Position numbers and translations under genes: made by a program. A stretch of 46,117 nucleotides of DNA from positions 1 through 46,117 of the forward strand of contig NZ_JAAHHT010000052.1 in the NCBI RefSeq assembly GCF_010672085.1, given 5' to 3'. How positions within the stretch are numbered: position 1 is the first letter of the stretch; each line of letters begins with the position of its first letter. Below the pieces are notes generated by a model, which was given only the letters and a program-made list of their open reading frames with translations, was not told the origin of the DNA and did no database searches. This document shows, one piece after another, positions 13,000-40,222 of the stretch. The stretch is from Okeania sp. SIO3I5 (GTDB lineage: Bacteria; Cyanobacteriota; Cyanobacteriia; Cyanobacteriales; Microcoleaceae).

Positions 13000-13374
13000 A
13001 TGGAATCAAACGGAAATACTTACAACCAAAAAGGCTTAGTTGGAATAGGCAATCAAAGCATTGGTACTGTTAAAGGCAATGCTAAAGTTGCAGGGGTAAT
13101 TTATGAAGCTAAAGACCAAAATTTAGCTGAGGCACTGGCACAAGTTCAACAAATTTTACAACAGCTTTCTCAAAGCTATCCTACTAATACAACTACCGAA
13201 CAAATGATTGTCGCGACAGAGACTATTAAAAAGATAGAAAATGACCCTAATTTAAAACAAAAATTAATTAGTGCAGCTACATCAGGTGGGTTAGCAGCTT
13301 TTGAAAAAGCTTTGGATAATCCAGTAGGTGCTCTTGTTTTTGGTGCGATTAAAGGGTGGCAAGAAGCTAGTTAG
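13000..13374 (+). CDS. Small helical protein upstream of the NACHT gene
   Basis: 124 residues, no transmembrane segment. An N-terminal Gly/Asn-rich portion (GLVGIGNQSIGTVKGNAKVA, residues 13-32) is probably beta-stranded. Three or so helices follow: AEALAQVQQILQQLSQSYP (about 43-61), EQMIVATETIKKIENDP, and LKQKLISAATSGGLAAFEKA to FGAIKGWQEA. Similar small proteins are common in filamentous cyanobacteria, often near NACHT or other conflict-type NTPases; the function is unknown. VKGNAKVAGVIYE resembles VKDHGKVAAIINE at the start of the downstream NACHT protein, suggesting a shared interaction element. The gap to the NACHT ATG is 187 bases and includes a GGGTGAAT/ATTCGCCC hairpin near 13388. Confidence 0.75.
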   Translation: MESNGNTYNQKGLVGIGNQSIGTVKGNAKVAGVIYEAKDQNLAEALAQVQQILQQLSQSYPTNTTTEQMIVATETIKKIENDPNLKQKLISAATSGGLAAFEKALDNPVGALVFGAIKGWQEAS

Positions 13375-13561
13375 AGTTAGAAGTAGGGGTGAATGGCTAT
13401 TCGCCCTTACGCTTTTGCTGCAAATAAATTTGACAGTTTGAGAATATTCTAACTATTCTGGTGACTGTATAGATTAAGTTAGAAGTTAAATTTTTAAGGT
13501 ATAGTTAGCTAGTAAGGTTAACTATACTTTTTGGTTGAAATGGAGAAATTTTGAACTAACT

Positions 13562-16072
13562 ATGGGAAATAAAGATAAGTATCAAAATGATTCAGCTAAA
13601 ATTGATCGTCAAAATATTAGGGATGTTAAAGATCACGGTAAAGTTGCAGCTATTATCAATGAAAATGTAAATGTTAATAATTTTAATTTTGCCGATTTTA
13701 TTCAAGGTTTTCTGAATTTTTTTCGTCCGGAAGATCGGGAGGCAAAAGTTAGGTCAGAACTTCTGAAAGGAATTAAGGTTGAAGTTGTTCAACGACTGGA
13801 AGATTCTCTACAGCAAAATCAATTATTGGTAAATCAATATTTAGAATTACCGATGTTTTCCCAGAATGAAGCTGTTGGTAGATTTGAGAGAAAAAAGATA
13901 ATTTCTCTACCTCCTGAAACTAAGATTATTGATGTTTTTTATAGGCGGGATGTGGCGGGTAAGTTATTAATTCTGGGTAAACCTGGGGCGGGAAAAACTA
14001 CTACTTTATTGAGGTTGGCAAAGGAGTTAATTGAGGAGGCGGAAAATAATGTTGATGCTCCTGTTCCTGTGATTTTTGAATTGTCTAATTGGCAGCAGGA
14101 TAATTTATCTATTGGAGATTGGTTGATTGAGTATTTAAAAGATTTTTATGGGATGAGCGATCGCCGATTTAATAGAAGTTTTTTAAGTGGGAGAAAAATT
14201 CTGCCGTTGTTGGATGGTTTGGATGAGTTGGGATTAGTTCGGCAGCGACTTTGTATTGAGAAGATTAATAATTTTATTGGGGAGGATATTGGGACTTGTT
14301 TGGTTGTTTGTTGTCGGGATGAGGAATATCAAGAGGGAAATTTTAGGTTGGAAAAGTTGAATGGTGCTTATTGTTTGCAGTCTCCTGAAGAGGAGGAAAT
14401 TTATCGTTATTTGGAAGGTTTGGGTAAGGTTGATTTGTGGGAAGTGATTCAAAATAATTCTCAAATGTGGGAGTTGGCAAATATTCCTTTGTTTTTGAAT
14501 ATTATGGTTACTGTTTATCAGGGGGAGCCTATTTATAATGAGGAACAATTATTTGCAGCTTATATTGAAGAATGTTTACAACGAATGCCTACTGATGTGG
14601 AAAAACGTGAAAAGTTTTTCTCTTCTTATACTCAAGAGCAAACTTCTTATACTCAAGAGCAAACTAGGCATTGGTTAACTTTTTTAGCGAGGCAGTTAGA
14701 AGCTGAAAATAAAACTGAGTTTCTGATTGAAAATATGCAGCCTAGTTGGTTAGAAAACAATGTTCAAAAGCTGGCTTACAGAATTATTTTTGGGCTGGTT
14801 GTTGGACTGATTTTTGGGTTGATTTTTGGGTTGATTTTTGGGTTGATTTATGGGCTAATTTTTGGGTTGATTTTTGGGTTGATTTATGGGCTAATTTTTA
14901 GGGTAGAAAAAATTGAACCTAAACAAGCTTTCAGCTTTTCCTGGCAAAAAATTAAGAAAAATCTGATTTTACGGCTGATTGATGGGTTGATTGATGGGCT
15001 GACTTTTGGGTTGATTTTTGGGCTAATTTTTGGGCTAATTTCTGGGCTAATAGAGACACTGCTTTTCGGAATAATTGGTATTCTGATTGACGATCTGACT
15101 AATTTGCTGATTGATGGGCTGATTTTAGGACTTATTAGTGGGCTAATTTTAGGCTTAATTTATGGATTAAATACAGACATTAAATTAAAACATACTCCCA
15201 ACCAAGGAATTAAAGAATCTCTAAAAAATTCTCTATCTATTTCTATAATAACTACTCCGTTTTTTTTACTAATTTTCTACTTTTACAGTTTATTAGATAC
15301 AGGTCTAGGCATAAAACTTGCGCTAGATGAACCAGAATTTAGCTTATTTTTAGGAATAATAATAGGTTTACACAGTGGGGGCTTACCATCTATTAAACAC
15401 TTCAGCTTAAGACTGATTCTCTGGCAAAATAGATTAATCCCTTGGAACTATGCAAAATTTTTGAAATATTCTGCTCAGAGAAGATTAACTCAACAAGTTG
15501 GAGGTCGTTTTCGCTTTATCCATGATTCTCTGCGTAAACATTTTACTGGCAATAAACCAGTAACTTCTTTATCTCCTCAGCTAGACAAAAATTACTCGCT
15601 AAGAATTATTATTTTTTTGATTATTTTGACCATATTTATAAACATCACATCATGTATTTATCCAATCACTCCACAAGCAAAAATATTTACTCCAGCTATA
15701 CAAACAAACAACCTGGTTTTCAGTGATATAATTACTCACAAATGGCGTAACTTAGAAAGAGGCAATCTAATAGATTTTTGGGGTAACGAAGAAGAAGGTT
15801 TTCAACCTTACTGTACTTACATAATGCCAATTATTGCACTACCAGGAGAAACTTTAGAAATTCAGGAGGGAAAAGTTTTCATTAACAACCAACCTTTTAC
15901 AGCAGATTATATTGCCGACTTGCCGACTCAAGATTACGACGAAATAAAAGTAGAAGTACCAGAAAATTATTATCTAGTTTTAGCCAGACATCCAGACAAA
16001 AATAACCAGTTACTCCGAGGCTTAATTCATAAAAAAGAAATTATCGGGCAAGTATTGTTCAAGATTTGGTAA
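13562..16072 (+). CDS. NACHT NTPase with GLIF-repeat membrane region and signal-peptidase-I-like C-terminus
   Basis: 836 residues from ATG 13562; an in-frame TTG at 13535 is less likely. Residues 20-45 hold VKDHGKVAAIINENVNVNN, like the upstream small protein. The NACHT core has Walker A GKPGAGKT (139-146), Walker B LLDGLDEL (216-223) and sensor VVCCRDEEY. ANIPLFLNIMV and the motif ending MQPSWLEN are those of cyanobacterial NACHT proteins. From about 410 to 540 come clustered GLIF, GLIY, GLID and GLIS tetrads built from 12-bp DNA repeats, giving several membrane helices. RLIPWNYAKFL and GGRFRFIHDSLRKHF (about 625-660) are the usual family end. Here one more helix (about 680-697) is followed by LERGNLIDFW, IIALPGETLEIQEGKVFINN and a terminal IIGQVLFKIW, as in signal peptidase I. 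The expected catalytic Ser and Lys appear replaced (Ile and Met755). Probably a membrane-bound STAND defence or stress switch. Confidence 0.88.
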   Translation: MGNKDKYQNDSAKIDRQNIRDVKDHGKVAAIINENVNVNNFNFADFIQGFLNFFRPEDREAKVRSELLKGIKVEVVQRLEDSLQQNQLLVNQYLELPMFSQNEAVGRFERKKIISLPPETKIIDVFYRRDVAGKLLILGKPGAGKTTTLLRLAKELIEEAENNVDAPVPVIFELSNWQQDNLSIGDWLIEYLKDFYGMSDRRFNRSFLSGRKILPLLDGLDELGLVRQRLCIEKINNFIGEDIGTCLVVCCRDEEYQEGNFRLEKLNGAYCLQSPEEEEIYRYLEGLGKVDLWEVIQNNSQMWELANIPLFLNIMVTVYQGEPIYNEEQLFAAYIEECLQRMPTDVEKREKFFSSYTQEQTSYTQEQTRHWLTFLARQLEAENKTEFLIENMQPSWLENNVQKLAYRIIFGLVVGLIFGLIFGLIFGLIYGLIFGLIFGLIYGLIFRVEKIEPKQAFSFSWQKIKKNLILRLIDGLIDGLTFGLIFGLIFGLISGLIETLLFGIIGILIDDLTNLLIDGLILGLISGLILGLIYGLNTDIKLKHTPNQGIKESLKNSLSISIITTPFFLLIFYFYSLLDTGLGIKLALDEPEFSLFLGIIIGLHSGGLPSIKHFSLRLILWQNRLIPWNYAKFLKYSAQRRLTQQVGGRFRFIHDSLRKHFTGNKPVTSLSPQLDKNYSLRIIIFLIILTIFINITSCIYPITPQAKIFTPAIQTNNLVFSDIITHKWRNLERGNLIDFWGNEEEGFQPYCTYIMPIIALPGETLEIQEGKVFINNQPFTADYIADLPTQDYDEIKVEVPENYYLVLARHPDKNNQLLRGLIHKKEIIGQVLFKIW

Positions 16073-24977: not shown

Positions 24978-26318
24978 TCAACCAAAGTTTTGATAAATCC
25001 AGTTGGCGTGCCTCAATAGTCTAACTTGATTACCATACTTGTCACCAGTAGAAAATACCCTCTTCTTTTCCCCTCTAGTTTGCCAATATCTTTGGCAAAT
25101 CCAACGATTATTTTTATTTGGGTGTCTTCTTTTTGCCCAACTCCAGAGTTTTTGGAATATCAAACTATCCAAATCCTGGAAAATTTTCTGATTCACCACT
25201 CCTGAGTAATAATTTACCCAAATTTTAATCAAAGAGTTAAGTTTTCTAATTAAGGCAACTTGTGGTGCAGACTTATGTCGATCTATCACCTCAGAAATTT
25301 GAGAATAATGACTTCTGATACTCTCCAAACTTGGTTTAATATTCGTTTTAAAACCTAGCTTACTTTGATTTTTACTCACCTCATATTGTCTAATATTAAA
25401 TCCCAAAAAATCAAAACCAAGTTCTTCTTCACCACATATATATAATGTGTGAGAAATTCTAATTTGACTTGGTTTTAATTCCAGAAATAACTCAGATAAA
25501 AACCCTGTAATTATATCTTGGCATTTTTGAACTACCTCAATATCTTCGTGAGCGATCGCCAAGTCACCTGCATAACGAATCAAACTTAAACCTTGACATT
25601 TTTCATTAAATGTTTCAGCGTAATGTTTGATTTGTGCTTCTATTTCATAGAAAACTATATTTGCCAGTAGTGGAAAAATTAATTCTTGTCTTAGGAACAA
25701 CTCTTTTCCATCCATCAGACCATCCTTTAACCAAACTCGAATTTGTTTACCTAAGTTTGGATAAGTATCTAATTGTTTTAAAAATTGTTCATAGTCGAGA
25801 CAGTCAAAGCATTTAGTTATGTCAGCTTTAAGTACATATTTAGGCTGAAACTTAACACAATTAACAATTGCTTTTATAGCATCCCGACATGATTCCCCTA
25901 GTCTAAACCCGTAACCATAAAGTTCAAACTTAGCTTCCCATTGTTTTTCTAGAGCTATCTTGACAAGTATTTGCAAAGCAAAGTCTTCAAAAGAGCTTTT
26001 TATAGGTTTAACCTTGCTATTTAGTTTTAATCCTTTAGCCAAGGCAAAACATTTTTCTGGAGACAATGATTGAACATCAATTATTCCTGCTGTTTTCTCA
26101 CCCTGGTTACTTTGACTAACCCTACGCACCGCCAATAACCTTCCATACCAGGATTTTATCAACGTTTTTTGGAGCTTACGAACTGCAATAACATCACCAC
26201 GTTGAGAGGCCATGTAGATTCTTTTCCGTAACTTGAAGACCCGACGCTCAACTTTTAACCAGTTAATCTCGCGCCATTCCTTCCATTCCCCCGTAGTCTT
26301 TAAACTCGTATTAGACAT
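24978..26318 (-). CDS. Group II intron reverse transcriptase/maturase, catalytically degenerate
   Basis: 446 residues, open throughout. It begins with the family N-terminus (WREINWLKVERRVFKLRKRI; LLAVRRVSQSNQGEKTAG) and keeps RT motif 3 with its Asp (VLKADITKCFDCLDY), HTLYICGEEELGFDFLGFNI and domain X (KLNSLIKIWVNYYSG). Compared with the intact ORF at 37601-39496, the IPKPG...KRPLGIPTM block is missing and TPQGGVISPLLANI has become RQELIFPLLANI. The active-site YADD is YAGD (residues 249-252, Gly codon 25566-25568). The C-terminal HNH domain is absent; the protein ends WIYQNFG. It cannot be an active polymerase. It may be decaying, or kept for RNA binding. Confidence 0.8.
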   Translation of the reverse strand: MSNTSLKTTGEWKEWREINWLKVERRVFKLRKRIYMASQRGDVIAVRKLQKTLIKSWYGRLLAVRRVSQSNQGEKTAGIIDVQSLSPEKCFALAKGLKLNSKVKPIKSSFEDFALQILVKIALEKQWEAKFELYGYGFRLGESCRDAIKAIVNCVKFQPKYVLKADITKCFDCLDYEQFLKQLDTYPNLGKQIRVWLKDGLMDGKELFLRQELIFPLLANIVFYEIEAQIKHYAETFNEKCQGLSLIRYAGDLAIAHEDIEVVQKCQDIITGFLSELFLELKPSQIRISHTLYICGEEELGFDFLGFNIRQYEVSKNQSKLGFKTNIKPSLESIRSHYSQISEVIDRHKSAPQVALIRKLNSLIKIWVNYYSGVVNQKIFQDLDSLIFQKLWSWAKRRHPNKNNRWICQRYWQTRGEKKRVFSTGDKYGNQVRLLRHANWIYQNFG

Positions 26319-37518: not shown

Positions 37519-40222
37519 GTTAAACTAAGCCAGTTTGTTACCAAACTGACTCGTCTTCAGAACCGGACGTGAGACTTTCACCTCATCAACGGCTCCTATC
37601 CTAAACGTCCTTTGTCATAGGTACATCCTGTTTCAGAGTTAACATATCGTCAATCCATACATAATTATCAGGTAAATCCTGGGGTTTAAATTTTGGATAT
37701 GTCCTTTTGTCTTTCGCAGTTTTCGTGTCGTGGCAATGTCGGTGCAACAGTTGTTTGTTCTTTAGTGTGTTGTCACCACCAAATGACCGTGGTTTTATAT
37801 GGTCTACTGACCTAAGGTCTGTCGGTCTAAAGGTTAGTCCGCAAAATGCGCATTTATTCTTTTGTCGCTTTAAGAGCGTTGTGACTTCTTTCCTTACGCC
37901 TGGATATTTACCGATTCTATTGCTCCAATAAGTCCAGTTGCCGTCATAGGGGGATTTATTACCTTTAACTTTGATGTGCCTTATAATAGGTACATCTGAG
38001 TGTAGGTTTAGTATATATCCATTGTCGTTAAGTTCCCATTTTCTGGTATTCTTAATTGTGGGGAAATACTTTTTCTTTACCCATTTAGCCGATTTATTTG
38101 GATGCTTTCTACTTGCCCATCTCCATAATCTCTTATATAAAAGCATATCCAACTTACTGAATATCTTTTTACTTACTACAGTGGAAAAGTAGTTAGCCCA
38201 TCCCCTAATTACCGGATTTAATTTAGCTATTAGAGCCTTTGTAGAGGCGGTTTTGTTTTTATTACATATATCCGCCAATTTCCGATAATGAGTCTTGATA
38301 CTCTTAGAGGACGGTTTAATCAGCGTTTTAAATCCTTGTCCGGTTGACTTGGCCTCATATTGCCTAACATTAAATCCTAGAAAGTCAAATCCGGGTTTAT
38401 TTCCTTCATATTCTTCCAAGGTGTGGGCAATTCTGGTTTTTTCAGGTTTTAGTTCTAATCCTACCTGGTTTAACCATTCCTGTATTACGGATTTTGCTTT
38501 TAACACTACTTTGATGTCTTCATGTAGGATAACAAAGTCGTCAGCATAGCGCACAAGGGATAATGCTTGTTTCTTATCACGCTTACTCCCTGGCAGGGTT
38601 TGCGCGAATTTATCTAAACACTTTTCCATACCGTGTAGGGCGATGTTTGCTAGTAAGGGTGATATGACCCCTCCCTGTGGTGTACCTTCCACAGTGTTTG
38701 AGAATTGTTTGTTGTCAAATACTCCAGACTTTAACCATTGTTTGATTAGTCGTCTGTAAGGTGATTGGCCAACTTTTCCCAACAGTGCCTCGTGGTTAAT
38801 TCGGTCAAAACATTTTGATATATCAGCATCTAGCACATATTTTGGCTTTTTATTAATGCTGGCGTATATCGCTCCAACAGCATCATGTGTTGACCGCCCT
38901 GGTCTGAAACCATAGCTATTAGGTTCAAAGCGTGCCTCCCACTCTGGTTCCATACCCAACTTAACCAAGGCTTGTAAGGCTCTATCATACATAGTAGGTA
39001 TGCCTAAAGGGCGTTTTTCATCCCTACCTGGTTTTGGTATCCAGACTCTACGGGTAGGACTTGCCTTGAGGTATCGCGTGTTTAATAAATCAACCAAGTT
39101 CAGTCTCTGCATTGGTGGTAAATTTTTAATACCATCCACACCAGCAGTTTTCTTACCCTGATTATCCTGAGTCACGCGCCTAACAGCTAGCAACCTTGCG
39201 TAATAACTTTTGGTCAGAAGTCTTTGGTATTTACGCATCTTACGGATTTCGCCACGGCTGGATGCTTTGTAAATTAACTTTTGCAACTTAAATACATTCT
39301 TCTCCACCCGTCTCCAGTTGATATCTCTCCATTTTAAATTTGGATTAATACTTACTGGATTTGGTATATCGTCTGTATCCCATGCCACGCTTAAAAAGCG
39401 AGTGCGTAATTCTGAGGTCTCCTCAGAATGTAAGACGCACTCAAGAGAGCGCTTTGGATTACCCAATCTTCTTTTTAGTGTTTTAGCTTTATTCATCGCT
39501 AATTATTACTTTACATTACGTCTAACAGTGGGTACGTCAGCAATGAATAATGAATAATGAACCATGAATAATTATTAGAGTTTAGGGAAAACTAAGCAAT
39601 TCAGATACTGAATATTTACTCTTATTCGTCCGCTCTTAATTATTAATTATTAATTATTAATTATTAATTAGTATGCTTCTTACCCAATCCTACTCTCCCT
39701 AAGACCTGCAACCATAGTGCAGATTGACCTTGAATGGCTTGCCTTCGATTCGACCTATATTCTTGGGTGTCTTAGAGAGGTTTCCTCGTTCTCTTATTCC
39801 TTTATTACGGCTGATTTAGTGGGGTAAAATCTCCCGAAGGGTTCGGTATGGTTGTTGACAACCTCATATAGATAGGTTATCCATTGACCCTCTGACTTTC
39901 GTCCTACATCCCACAGTTACCTTTGGGATGGCTTACAATTACGAGAGTTTTATTACCTTCCTCTTCGTCCACTTGTCAGCCTTTGCTTGCGGTATCGTTC
40001 CTGGTAACTGGTATTGTCCCGCTTTTAAACCAGCTTCGGAGATTGATGTTCAGTCGCTACTCCGTGGTCTATGCTGTCAACCCAACAACAGGGCGGGTGG
40101 AATTTCACCACCAAGGTAATAAGAGTTTTCCGGTAGCCAGATGTTTAACCTCCTTTAAGATTAGCTACGGAAGGCCAGATATGCCTGCCTTTCAGCAGTT
40201 TTGACTAACCAACGAGTCGCAC
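37519..40222 (-). mobile_element. Intact group II intron, 2704 bp
   Basis: On the minus strand it begins GTGCGACTCGTTGG at 40222 and ends GGCTTAGTTTAAC at 37519. Domain V (37545-37590) runs from GAGCCG through GGTGAAAGTCTCACG to CCGGTTCTGAAG, containing the AGC triad. Domain VI follows. Domains I-III lie at about 39500-40222 and the maturase gene is in domain IV. All expected landmarks are present, so it is likely mobile and self-splicing with its maturase. It is inserted directly upstream of topA in the same orientation. Confidence 0.9.
37601..39496 (-). CDS. ltrA: Group II intron-encoded RT/maturase/HNH endonuclease
   Basis: 631 residues. The N-terminal RT domain has GKKTAGVDG, WIPKPGRDEKRPLGIPTM, YVLDADISKCFDRINHE, TPQGGVISPLLANI, and the active site YADD (317-320). 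Domain X (maturase) includes ADICNKNKTASTKALIAKLN and NPVIRGWANYF with W..R. The HNH endonuclease at the C-terminus has CAFCGLTF, SVDHIKPRSFGGDN and LHRHCHDTK, with all four Cys/His pairs. It binds the intron RNA, helps it splice, and drives target-primed retrohoming. Every catalytic motif is intact, unlike the related frame at 24978-26318, which it could perhaps help in trans. The first ATG (40222 side) at 39496 gives a normal-length family N-terminus. Confidence 0.96.
   Translation of the reverse strand: MNKAKTLKRRLGNPKRSLECVLHSEETSELRTRFLSVAWDTDDIPNPVSINPNLKWRDINWRRVEKNVFKLQKLIYKASSRGEIRKMRKYQRLLTKSYYARLLAVRRVTQDNQGKKTAGVDGIKNLPPMQRLNLVDLLNTRYLKASPTRRVWIPKPGRDEKRPLGIPTMYDRALQALVKLGMEPEWEARFEPNSYGFRPGRSTHDAVGAIYASINKKPKYVLDADISKCFDRINHEALLGKVGQSPYRRLIKQWLKSGVFDNKQFSNTVEGTPQGGVISPLLANIALHGMEKCLDKFAQTLPGSKRDKKQALSLVRYADDFVILHEDIKVVLKAKSVIQEWLNQVGLELKPEKTRIAHTLEEYEGNKPGFDFLGFNVRQYEAKSTGQGFKTLIKPSSKSIKTHYRKLADICNKNKTASTKALIAKLNPVIRGWANYFSTVVSKKIFSKLDMLLYKRLWRWASRKHPNKSAKWVKKKYFPTIKNTRKWELNDNGYILNLHSDVPIIRHIKVKGNKSPYDGNWTYWSNRIGKYPGVRKEVTTLLKRQKNKCAFCGLTFRPTDLRSVDHIKPRSFGGDNTLKNKQLLHRHCHDTKTAKDKRTYPKFKPQDLPDNYVWIDDMLTLKQDVPMTKDV

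Follow-up and report, generated by a model that had tools for sequence, protein, structure and literature searches.

The 46,117-nucleotide contig NZ_JAAHHT010000052.1 of Okeania sp. SIO3I5 (the window, by which we mean the whole stretch of DNA that was analysed) carries a gene in which a NACHT-type ATPase, a membrane region and a type I signal peptidase (SPase I) that has lost its catalytic residues are joined in one open reading frame (ORF). The tail of this protein has the S26 peptidase fold, its nucleophile is missing in every member of the family that we examined, all but one of those members fall in one main clade under purifying selection, and in the window's own clade the gene is accompanied by a small partner with which it shares an N-terminal motif. 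That the fusion recurs, and never with the nucleophile, suggests reuse of a dead secretion enzyme as part of a receptor, and the dead SPase may be the sensing or decoy part of a membrane NACHT receptor in filamentous cyanobacteria, a reading that we hold tentatively. The features on which the argument draws are as follows.

13562..16072, + strand: NACHT-membrane region-dead SPase I gene, 836 amino acids (aa); frame open from 13535.
13562..13700, + strand: N-terminal motif common to the partner and the NACHT protein, about residues 1-46.
13967..14245, + strand: NACHT domain (PF05729, residues 145-237 of the 845-aa frame), with GKPGAGKT as Walker A and LLDGLDEL as Walker B.
14768..15295, + strand: GLIF-repeat membrane region, from hydropathy segments (residues 403-578); low-confidence helices in the full-length model.
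15449..15547, + strand: NACHT family end IPWNY..GGRFRFIHDSLRKHF, helix-hairpin-helix; tail-less paralogues stop near there.
15593..15649, + strand: single membrane helix ahead of the S26 domain (model helix 678-696; hydropathy 2.59).
15608..16069, + strand: Peptidase_S26 (signal peptidase I) domain with catalytic residues lost, from PF10502, TIGR02227 and fold.
15683..15685, + strand: codon at the catalytic Ser position, Ile (ATA), from alignment.
15824..15826, + strand: codon at the catalytic Lys position, Met (ATG), from alignment.
13000..13374, + strand: 124-aa partner gene upstream of the NACHT gene, N-terminal motif followed by a small domain.

The frame runs uninterrupted from 13535 to 16072 on the + strand, starting at TTG 13535 (845 aa) or, more likely, at ATG 13562 (836 aa), and encodes in order the NACHT domain, glycine-rich hydrophobic repeats, the family end, one helix and the S26 domain. 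The fusion of a NACHT ATPase to an SPase I-like domain, first proposed from the sequence alone (the original prediction), is borne out by family models that all score above their cut-offs within this one frame: NACHT (PF05729) with 29.9 bits against a cut-off of 26.7 (E 5.8e-7, hmmscan against Pfam), the P-loop and Walker B of a STAND ATPase both being present (GKPGAGKT, LLDGLDEL), Peptidase_S26 (PF10502) with 48.2 bits against 22.9 (E 1.5e-12, hmmscan; residues 692-845 of the 845-aa frame), and the NCBIfam model sigpep_I_bact (TIGR02227) with 59.3 bits against 47. Searched alone against the sequences in PDB with phmmer, the tail matched SpsB of Staphylococcus aureus (E 4.2e-6). A structure of the junction plus tail, modelled with AlphaFold2 from a 12-sequence alignment (mean predicted local distance difference test, pLDDT, 78.1), gave 23 best Foldseek matches in PDB that were all SPase I or SipA, the top one with E 4.9e-6 and a template modelling score by query of 0.43 for a model that includes junction and anchor. 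Since the family-model scores, the SpsB sequence match and the fold matches agree, the S26 homology of the tail is secure, as had been anticipated for both the family-model and the structural comparison. It had also been thought that boxes C, D and E of SPase I follow one another in the tail; the S26 fold stands and the assignment of box E does not, IIGQVLFKIW being the strand that follows it. No stop codon lies at the boundary between NACHT and tail in the window gene. A frameshift or assembly join there, an event that the original prediction had named as its own undoing, is ruled out, as the identical junction recurs in other genomes, and the fusion stands.

The tail belongs to the SPase I family by homology and fold and lacks the Ser-Lys dyad of an active SPase I, with Ile and Met at the aligned positions, just as had been predicted. 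To place this loss we aligned 24 fusion tails with 29 ordinary cyanobacterial SPases, namely two from the same genome and 27 loci from a class-wide tail search that were not picked by active site (a short SodX-like SPase of the Okeania genome, L004/L005, was left out). All 29 ordinary enzymes have both Ser and Lys. The fusions, in the survey of catalytic residues that the original prediction had called for, have Ser in none of the 24 loci (Ala in eight, Gly in six, Met in five, Thr in three, Tyr in one and Ile in one), and at the Lys position they carry Arg in 15, Lys in five and Met in four, so that Lys is lost in 19/24. Where Lys is kept (five loci) the Ser position is Gly, and where Thr replaces Ser (three loci) the Lys position is Met; a Ser or Thr nucleophile together with Lys therefore occurs in 0/24. 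Box E is degraded as well, reading ARHPDKNNQLL in the window tail versus GDNRNNSNDSH in one of the ordinary SPases of the same genome (L001). Two such dyad-bearing SPases are encoded in this genome, and they are possible guarded targets.

The fusion is not confined to this genome. Counts from our class and order searches are lower bounds, at most seven or eight candidates having been scored per genome. The raw tail, searched through 388 genomes of the class, mostly returned ordinary SPases and gave two further long-frame fusions among the matches listed (G022 and G082); a profile of junction plus tail separated the fusions, and with it at least 22 of 388 genomes in the order search (at least 23 loci, the Okeania genome included) matched nearly the whole profile. 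In the class sample a larger profile at E <= 1e-45 found at least 3 of 388 genomes, again with the Okeania genome included. Together with G082, at least 24 fusion loci with eight family codes were collected, of which 19, with seven family codes, have one open frame of 801-977 aa with P-loop and tail; in three of the 24 the locus is truncated at a contig edge or by a masked run, or begins next to a contig end. A further fusion in Moorena SIO3H5 (L112) stands outside these 24. Carriers named by a scan of genomes from 85k species include Oscillatoria, Laspinema, Roseofilum, Geitlerinema and Moorena. All carriers found are cyanobacteria; the scan relied on a single peptide pattern, that of the NACHT family end, and could overlook fusions in other phyla or to other types of STAND protein, and the other searches were made within the class. 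A tblastn search with junction plus tail against PLSDB gave no plasmid match at 1e-12. Among viral structures in BFVD one match fell under 1e-3, with a root-mean-square deviation of 14.7, and the weaker ones include annotated viral SPases. The PADLOC defence families gave weak matches to the ATPase part alone (best E 1.8e-4, 17.8 bits).

In an S26 tree built with the catalytic columns excluded, 23 of the 24 fusion tails form one clade (100/100), within which the window tail clusters with three Moorena-type tails (100/97). The G082 tail, on a long branch, falls with the SPases and may have been captured independently. Simple NG86 counts gave ratios of nonsynonymous to synonymous substitution (dN/dS) of 0.24-0.64 for the tail in 11 pairs, all 11 below 1, and of 0.26-0.71 for NACHT plus membrane region in 10 pairs, by which measure the tails are under purifying selection; the single clade and these ratios speak for an arrangement that is conserved and not decaying. 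A quick NACHT tree covered 19 of the 24 fusions (the other five have no in-frame core or junction), 19 of the 30 loci L114-L143 and two paralogues from the Okeania genome, a further relative there (C67) being left out. The label tail-less is unsafe for L114 because that locus reaches its contig end. Fusions and tail-less relatives are intermixed in this tree, with 6 changes needed, at least 5 of them forced by starred branches, and the window NACHT is nearest to tail-less proteins of Okeania and Trichodesmium (80% identity over 472 columns with Okeania L122). The plain reading is an old fusion of which the tail has repeatedly been lost.

Two tail-less NACHT paralogues of the same genome stop near the family end, and relatives of the same family carry at the tail position either extensions that resemble tetratricopeptide repeats, WD40 repeats or zinc ribbons (named by eye) or nothing. 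The tail thus occupies a site used by repeat-like extensions, which supports a sensor role. One tail-less paralogue (L090, contig C41) has an N-terminal domain that resembles a nucleotide cyclase by eye. In membrane proteins, positively charged residues tend to remain on the cytoplasmic side (the positive-inside rule). Counted over 25 residues on each side of the last helix in the 24 members (the N side being cut by a stop in L076 and L088), Lys plus Arg sum to 71 and Asp plus Glu to 52 on the N side, and to 35 and 72 respectively on the C side; 17 members have their more positive side N-terminal to the helix, four show no difference and in three the relation is reversed. By the positive-inside rule this bias favours an S26 domain that, as in SPase I, would lie outside the membrane, and we infer that it does.

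Each of the three Moorena-type fusions has a homologue of the partner immediately upstream (E 8e-24 to 3.5e-22), and partners 79-82% identical to that of the window occur in Okeania L121, L122 and L131 and in Trichodesmium L119. The partner itself has no Pfam family in a Pfam scan, and its small domain is found at 19 places in the Okeania genome, the window partner included. Several upstream ORFs were tried per locus in a shuffle test of the motif shared between partner and NACHT N-terminus, and at all three Moorena-type loci the match was better than every shuffle (0/300 each). Residues 4-37 of the window partner match the NACHT N-terminus of Okeania L122 (53%, E 7e-6), and the partner matches the L119 counterpart over 90 residues (31%, E 8e-8), matches that are firmer than the window pair itself and point to an N-terminal motif common to partner and NACHT protein in the clade to which the window gene belongs. 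Among the other 15 full-frame loci, 13 begin instead with hydrophobic segments, as judged by eye.

Other pairs of this kind were seen. On contig C34 of the Okeania genome (L149) a partner-domain gene is next to a gene for what by eye is an ATPase-type protein, and the first 32 residues of that protein match the partner N-terminus (0/1000 shuffles), which suggests that motif-sharing pairs may be a more general wiring in this genome. The partner domain is also found C-terminally, after a similar motif, in frames of 580-718 aa on contigs C77, C543 and C75 (L145, L146 and L147), which resemble multi-pass membrane proteins by eye. Upstream of the G082 fusion, and touching its frame, lies a small gene of different layout (L037, 8092-8523) whose C-terminus resembles the NACHT N-terminus more weakly (5/300 shuffles). 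Elsewhere in the window two group II intron reverse transcriptase/maturase genes lie on the - strand, at 24978-26318 (RVT_N, RVT_1, GIIM) and at 37601-39496 (RVT_N, RVT_1 and GIIM plus an HNH domain).

We propose that a whole SPase I, anchor helix and domain together, would have been joined to the C-terminus of a NACHT protein, would have lost catalysis and would have been retained for recognition. The NACHT domain would be cytosolic, with the dead SPase outside and close to the export machinery, where it could act as receptor or integrated decoy that reads either a foreign protein binding or blocking SPase I or abnormal exported proteins. The NACHT domain would then switch with ATP and assemble, and the signal would leave by the N-terminus, through homotypic contact with the small partner in the window's clade and through N-terminal membrane helices in most other fusions, with growth arrest or death of the infected cell as the outcome. 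Topology, ligand sensing, ATP-driven assembly, N-terminal signalling and a role in defence are all predictions of this scheme. In its most specific form, in which an extracytoplasmic dead SPase I would be an integrated decoy that guards export and would pass its signal inward, by way of the membrane NACHT protein, to the small partner, the scheme is possible and distinctly doubtful. An integrated decoy copies a host protein that is present in the cell, and here the genome does hold two SPase I genes.

Several observations weigh against this scheme. The partner gene was found at 4 of the 24 fusion loci and not at the other 20 in the stretches examined; the motif match of the window pair is weak on its own (1/300 shuffles as good), and an ORF of 448 aa at L079 that is unrelated did equally well (1/300). 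The charge bias is missing in 7/24 members, and the full-length model is of low confidence (mean pLDDT 63.9), too weak for arguing domain contacts. Ten further window proteins scanned with Pfam included no recognised defence gene. In Okeania L121 and L122 an open NACHT frame is followed by mere remnants of an S26 tail, in Okeania L131 such remnants lie beside an interrupted NACHT frame (the frame is interrupted in L128 too), and in Trichodesmium L119 the NACHT frame is open and no S26 remnant was found downstream; a stop separates NACHT and tail in L076 and L088, and the Spirulina copy (L113) is disrupted. The tail is thus dispensable in some lineages. The cleft also counts against a simple signal-peptide receptor. 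Within the 23-tail clade, and with box limits set by us, the 22 catalytic or cleft-box columns that are invariant in SPase I are kept in 29% of cells, whereas the 29 other invariant columns are kept in 49%, a modest gap; of 17 columns conserved in at least 20 of the 23 tails just one lies inside those boxes. Because the cleft columns are relaxed here and the cleft of SipA is conserved, a ligand other than a canonically bound signal peptide seems the more probable for the tail; signal peptides and exported proteins had been the options put forward in the original prediction.

The same evidence bears on the other explanations. The dead SPase could be the effector, which once activated would compete with the real enzyme at the export machinery as a dominant negative and halt secretion. 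The genome does retain two dyad-bearing SPases with which it could compete, and anchor and domain have been kept together, but the C-terminus in this NACHT family can bear recognition-type, repeat-like extensions (by eye), the N-terminus bears the partner motif or hydrophobic segments, and the columns that would hold a substrate are relaxed, so we regard an effector as unlikely. A purely structural tail, which would recognise no trigger and would hold the receptor in position or stabilise it, whether in the membrane or at the export machinery, strikes us as similarly improbable: the membrane region already anchors the protein, and tail-less paralogues in the same genome imply that the core architecture can do without the tail. 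What speaks for it is that the other SPase-invariant columns are better kept than those of the cleft, that L121 and L122 lost the tail while the NACHT frame stayed open, and that a scaffolding or recognition role has been proposed for SipA (PMC4049620, in the part of that account consulted).

That the tail is an evolutionary passenger already in decay would explain the broken tails of Okeania, L076, L088 and Spirulina; it is hard to reconcile with dN/dS below 1 in 11/11 pairs, with one long open frame in 19/24 loci of seven family codes and with the conservation of 17 columns in 20 or more of the 23 tails, and we consider it improbable to a marked degree. Least credible, to the point of being nearly negligible, is a tail that is still a peptidase by way of other residues, since no member of the 24 combines a Ser or Thr nucleophile with Lys and box E is degraded, even if three members have Thr at the Ser position and five keep Lys. 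A sensing or decoy part remains the reading that we tentatively prefer.

Compared with known proteins, the fusion tails share with type I signal peptidases (PF10502, TIGR02227) the fold, the anchor helix and the order of the boxes, and differ in having no Ser, mostly no Lys, a degraded box E, a NACHT fusion partner and, for 23/24, a clade of their own. SipA of Streptococcus pyogenes (PDB 4n31), as far as the consulted part of its description goes, is likewise a membrane-anchored SPase I fold without the dyad, a dead SPase with an essential non-catalytic role there; it differs in being a stand-alone pilus assembly factor, unlinked to an ATPase and with a conserved peptide cleft (PMC4049620). 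Bacterial NACHT proteins related to NLRs (nucleotide-binding leucine-rich repeat proteins), such as bNACHT25, for which the portion of the source consulted describes guard-like indirect sensing (PMC12169576), also have a NACHT core between an N-terminal part and a variable C-terminus. The window fusion, known here from sequence alone, adds to this a membrane region of several helices inside the protein and, as C-terminal module, a dead SPase. The pairing of partner and NACHT protein recalls the homotypic wiring of effector-associated domains (PMC8195603, as excerpted) or amyloid-signalling pairs; BASS motifs, according to the sections of the source consulted (PMC8086366), lie at the C-termini of Bell proteins and the N-termini of NLRs, and here too a motif appears to be shared, but, compared by description, at the N-terminus of the partner and not at its C-terminus. 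In the extracts consulted, Kaur et al. (2020; PMC7159879) report that conflict systems of multicellular prokaryotes contain inactive copies of enzymes, and they refer to the immunity of eukaryotes for decoy action; the likeness lies in a dead enzyme copy, an active version in the same cell and an NTPase switch, and the difference in that inactive copies there are treated as effectors. The term signal peptidase does not occur in the main text of two conflict-system papers, one of which is PMC7159879.

Our literature search, whose coverage mostly left aside subscription papers and preprints, found among the papers listed no description of a fusion between NACHT and signal peptidase, in line with the original prediction, whose author knew of no described system of this type; one listed paper that contains both terms deals, by its abstract, with 2A-like signal sequences. 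Cyanobacterial NACHT proteins are, to our knowledge, numerous and mostly without known triggers, and if the proposal is true it supplies a candidate for what some of them watch. It would also mean that a decoy outside the membrane lets a cytosolic switch follow what happens at the export machinery. In plant NLRs with an integrated decoy, a copy of a host target is built into the receptor; the window protein would resemble them in this, with a decoy role that is putative here, and differs in belonging to an unrelated lineage. An ATPase of NLR type into which a dead host enzyme is built is, as we see it, a known kind of system, and what is new is that the enzyme is an SPase; if our reading is true, bacteria equip an NLR-type protein with the dead copy of a housekeeping target, the trick that plants use.
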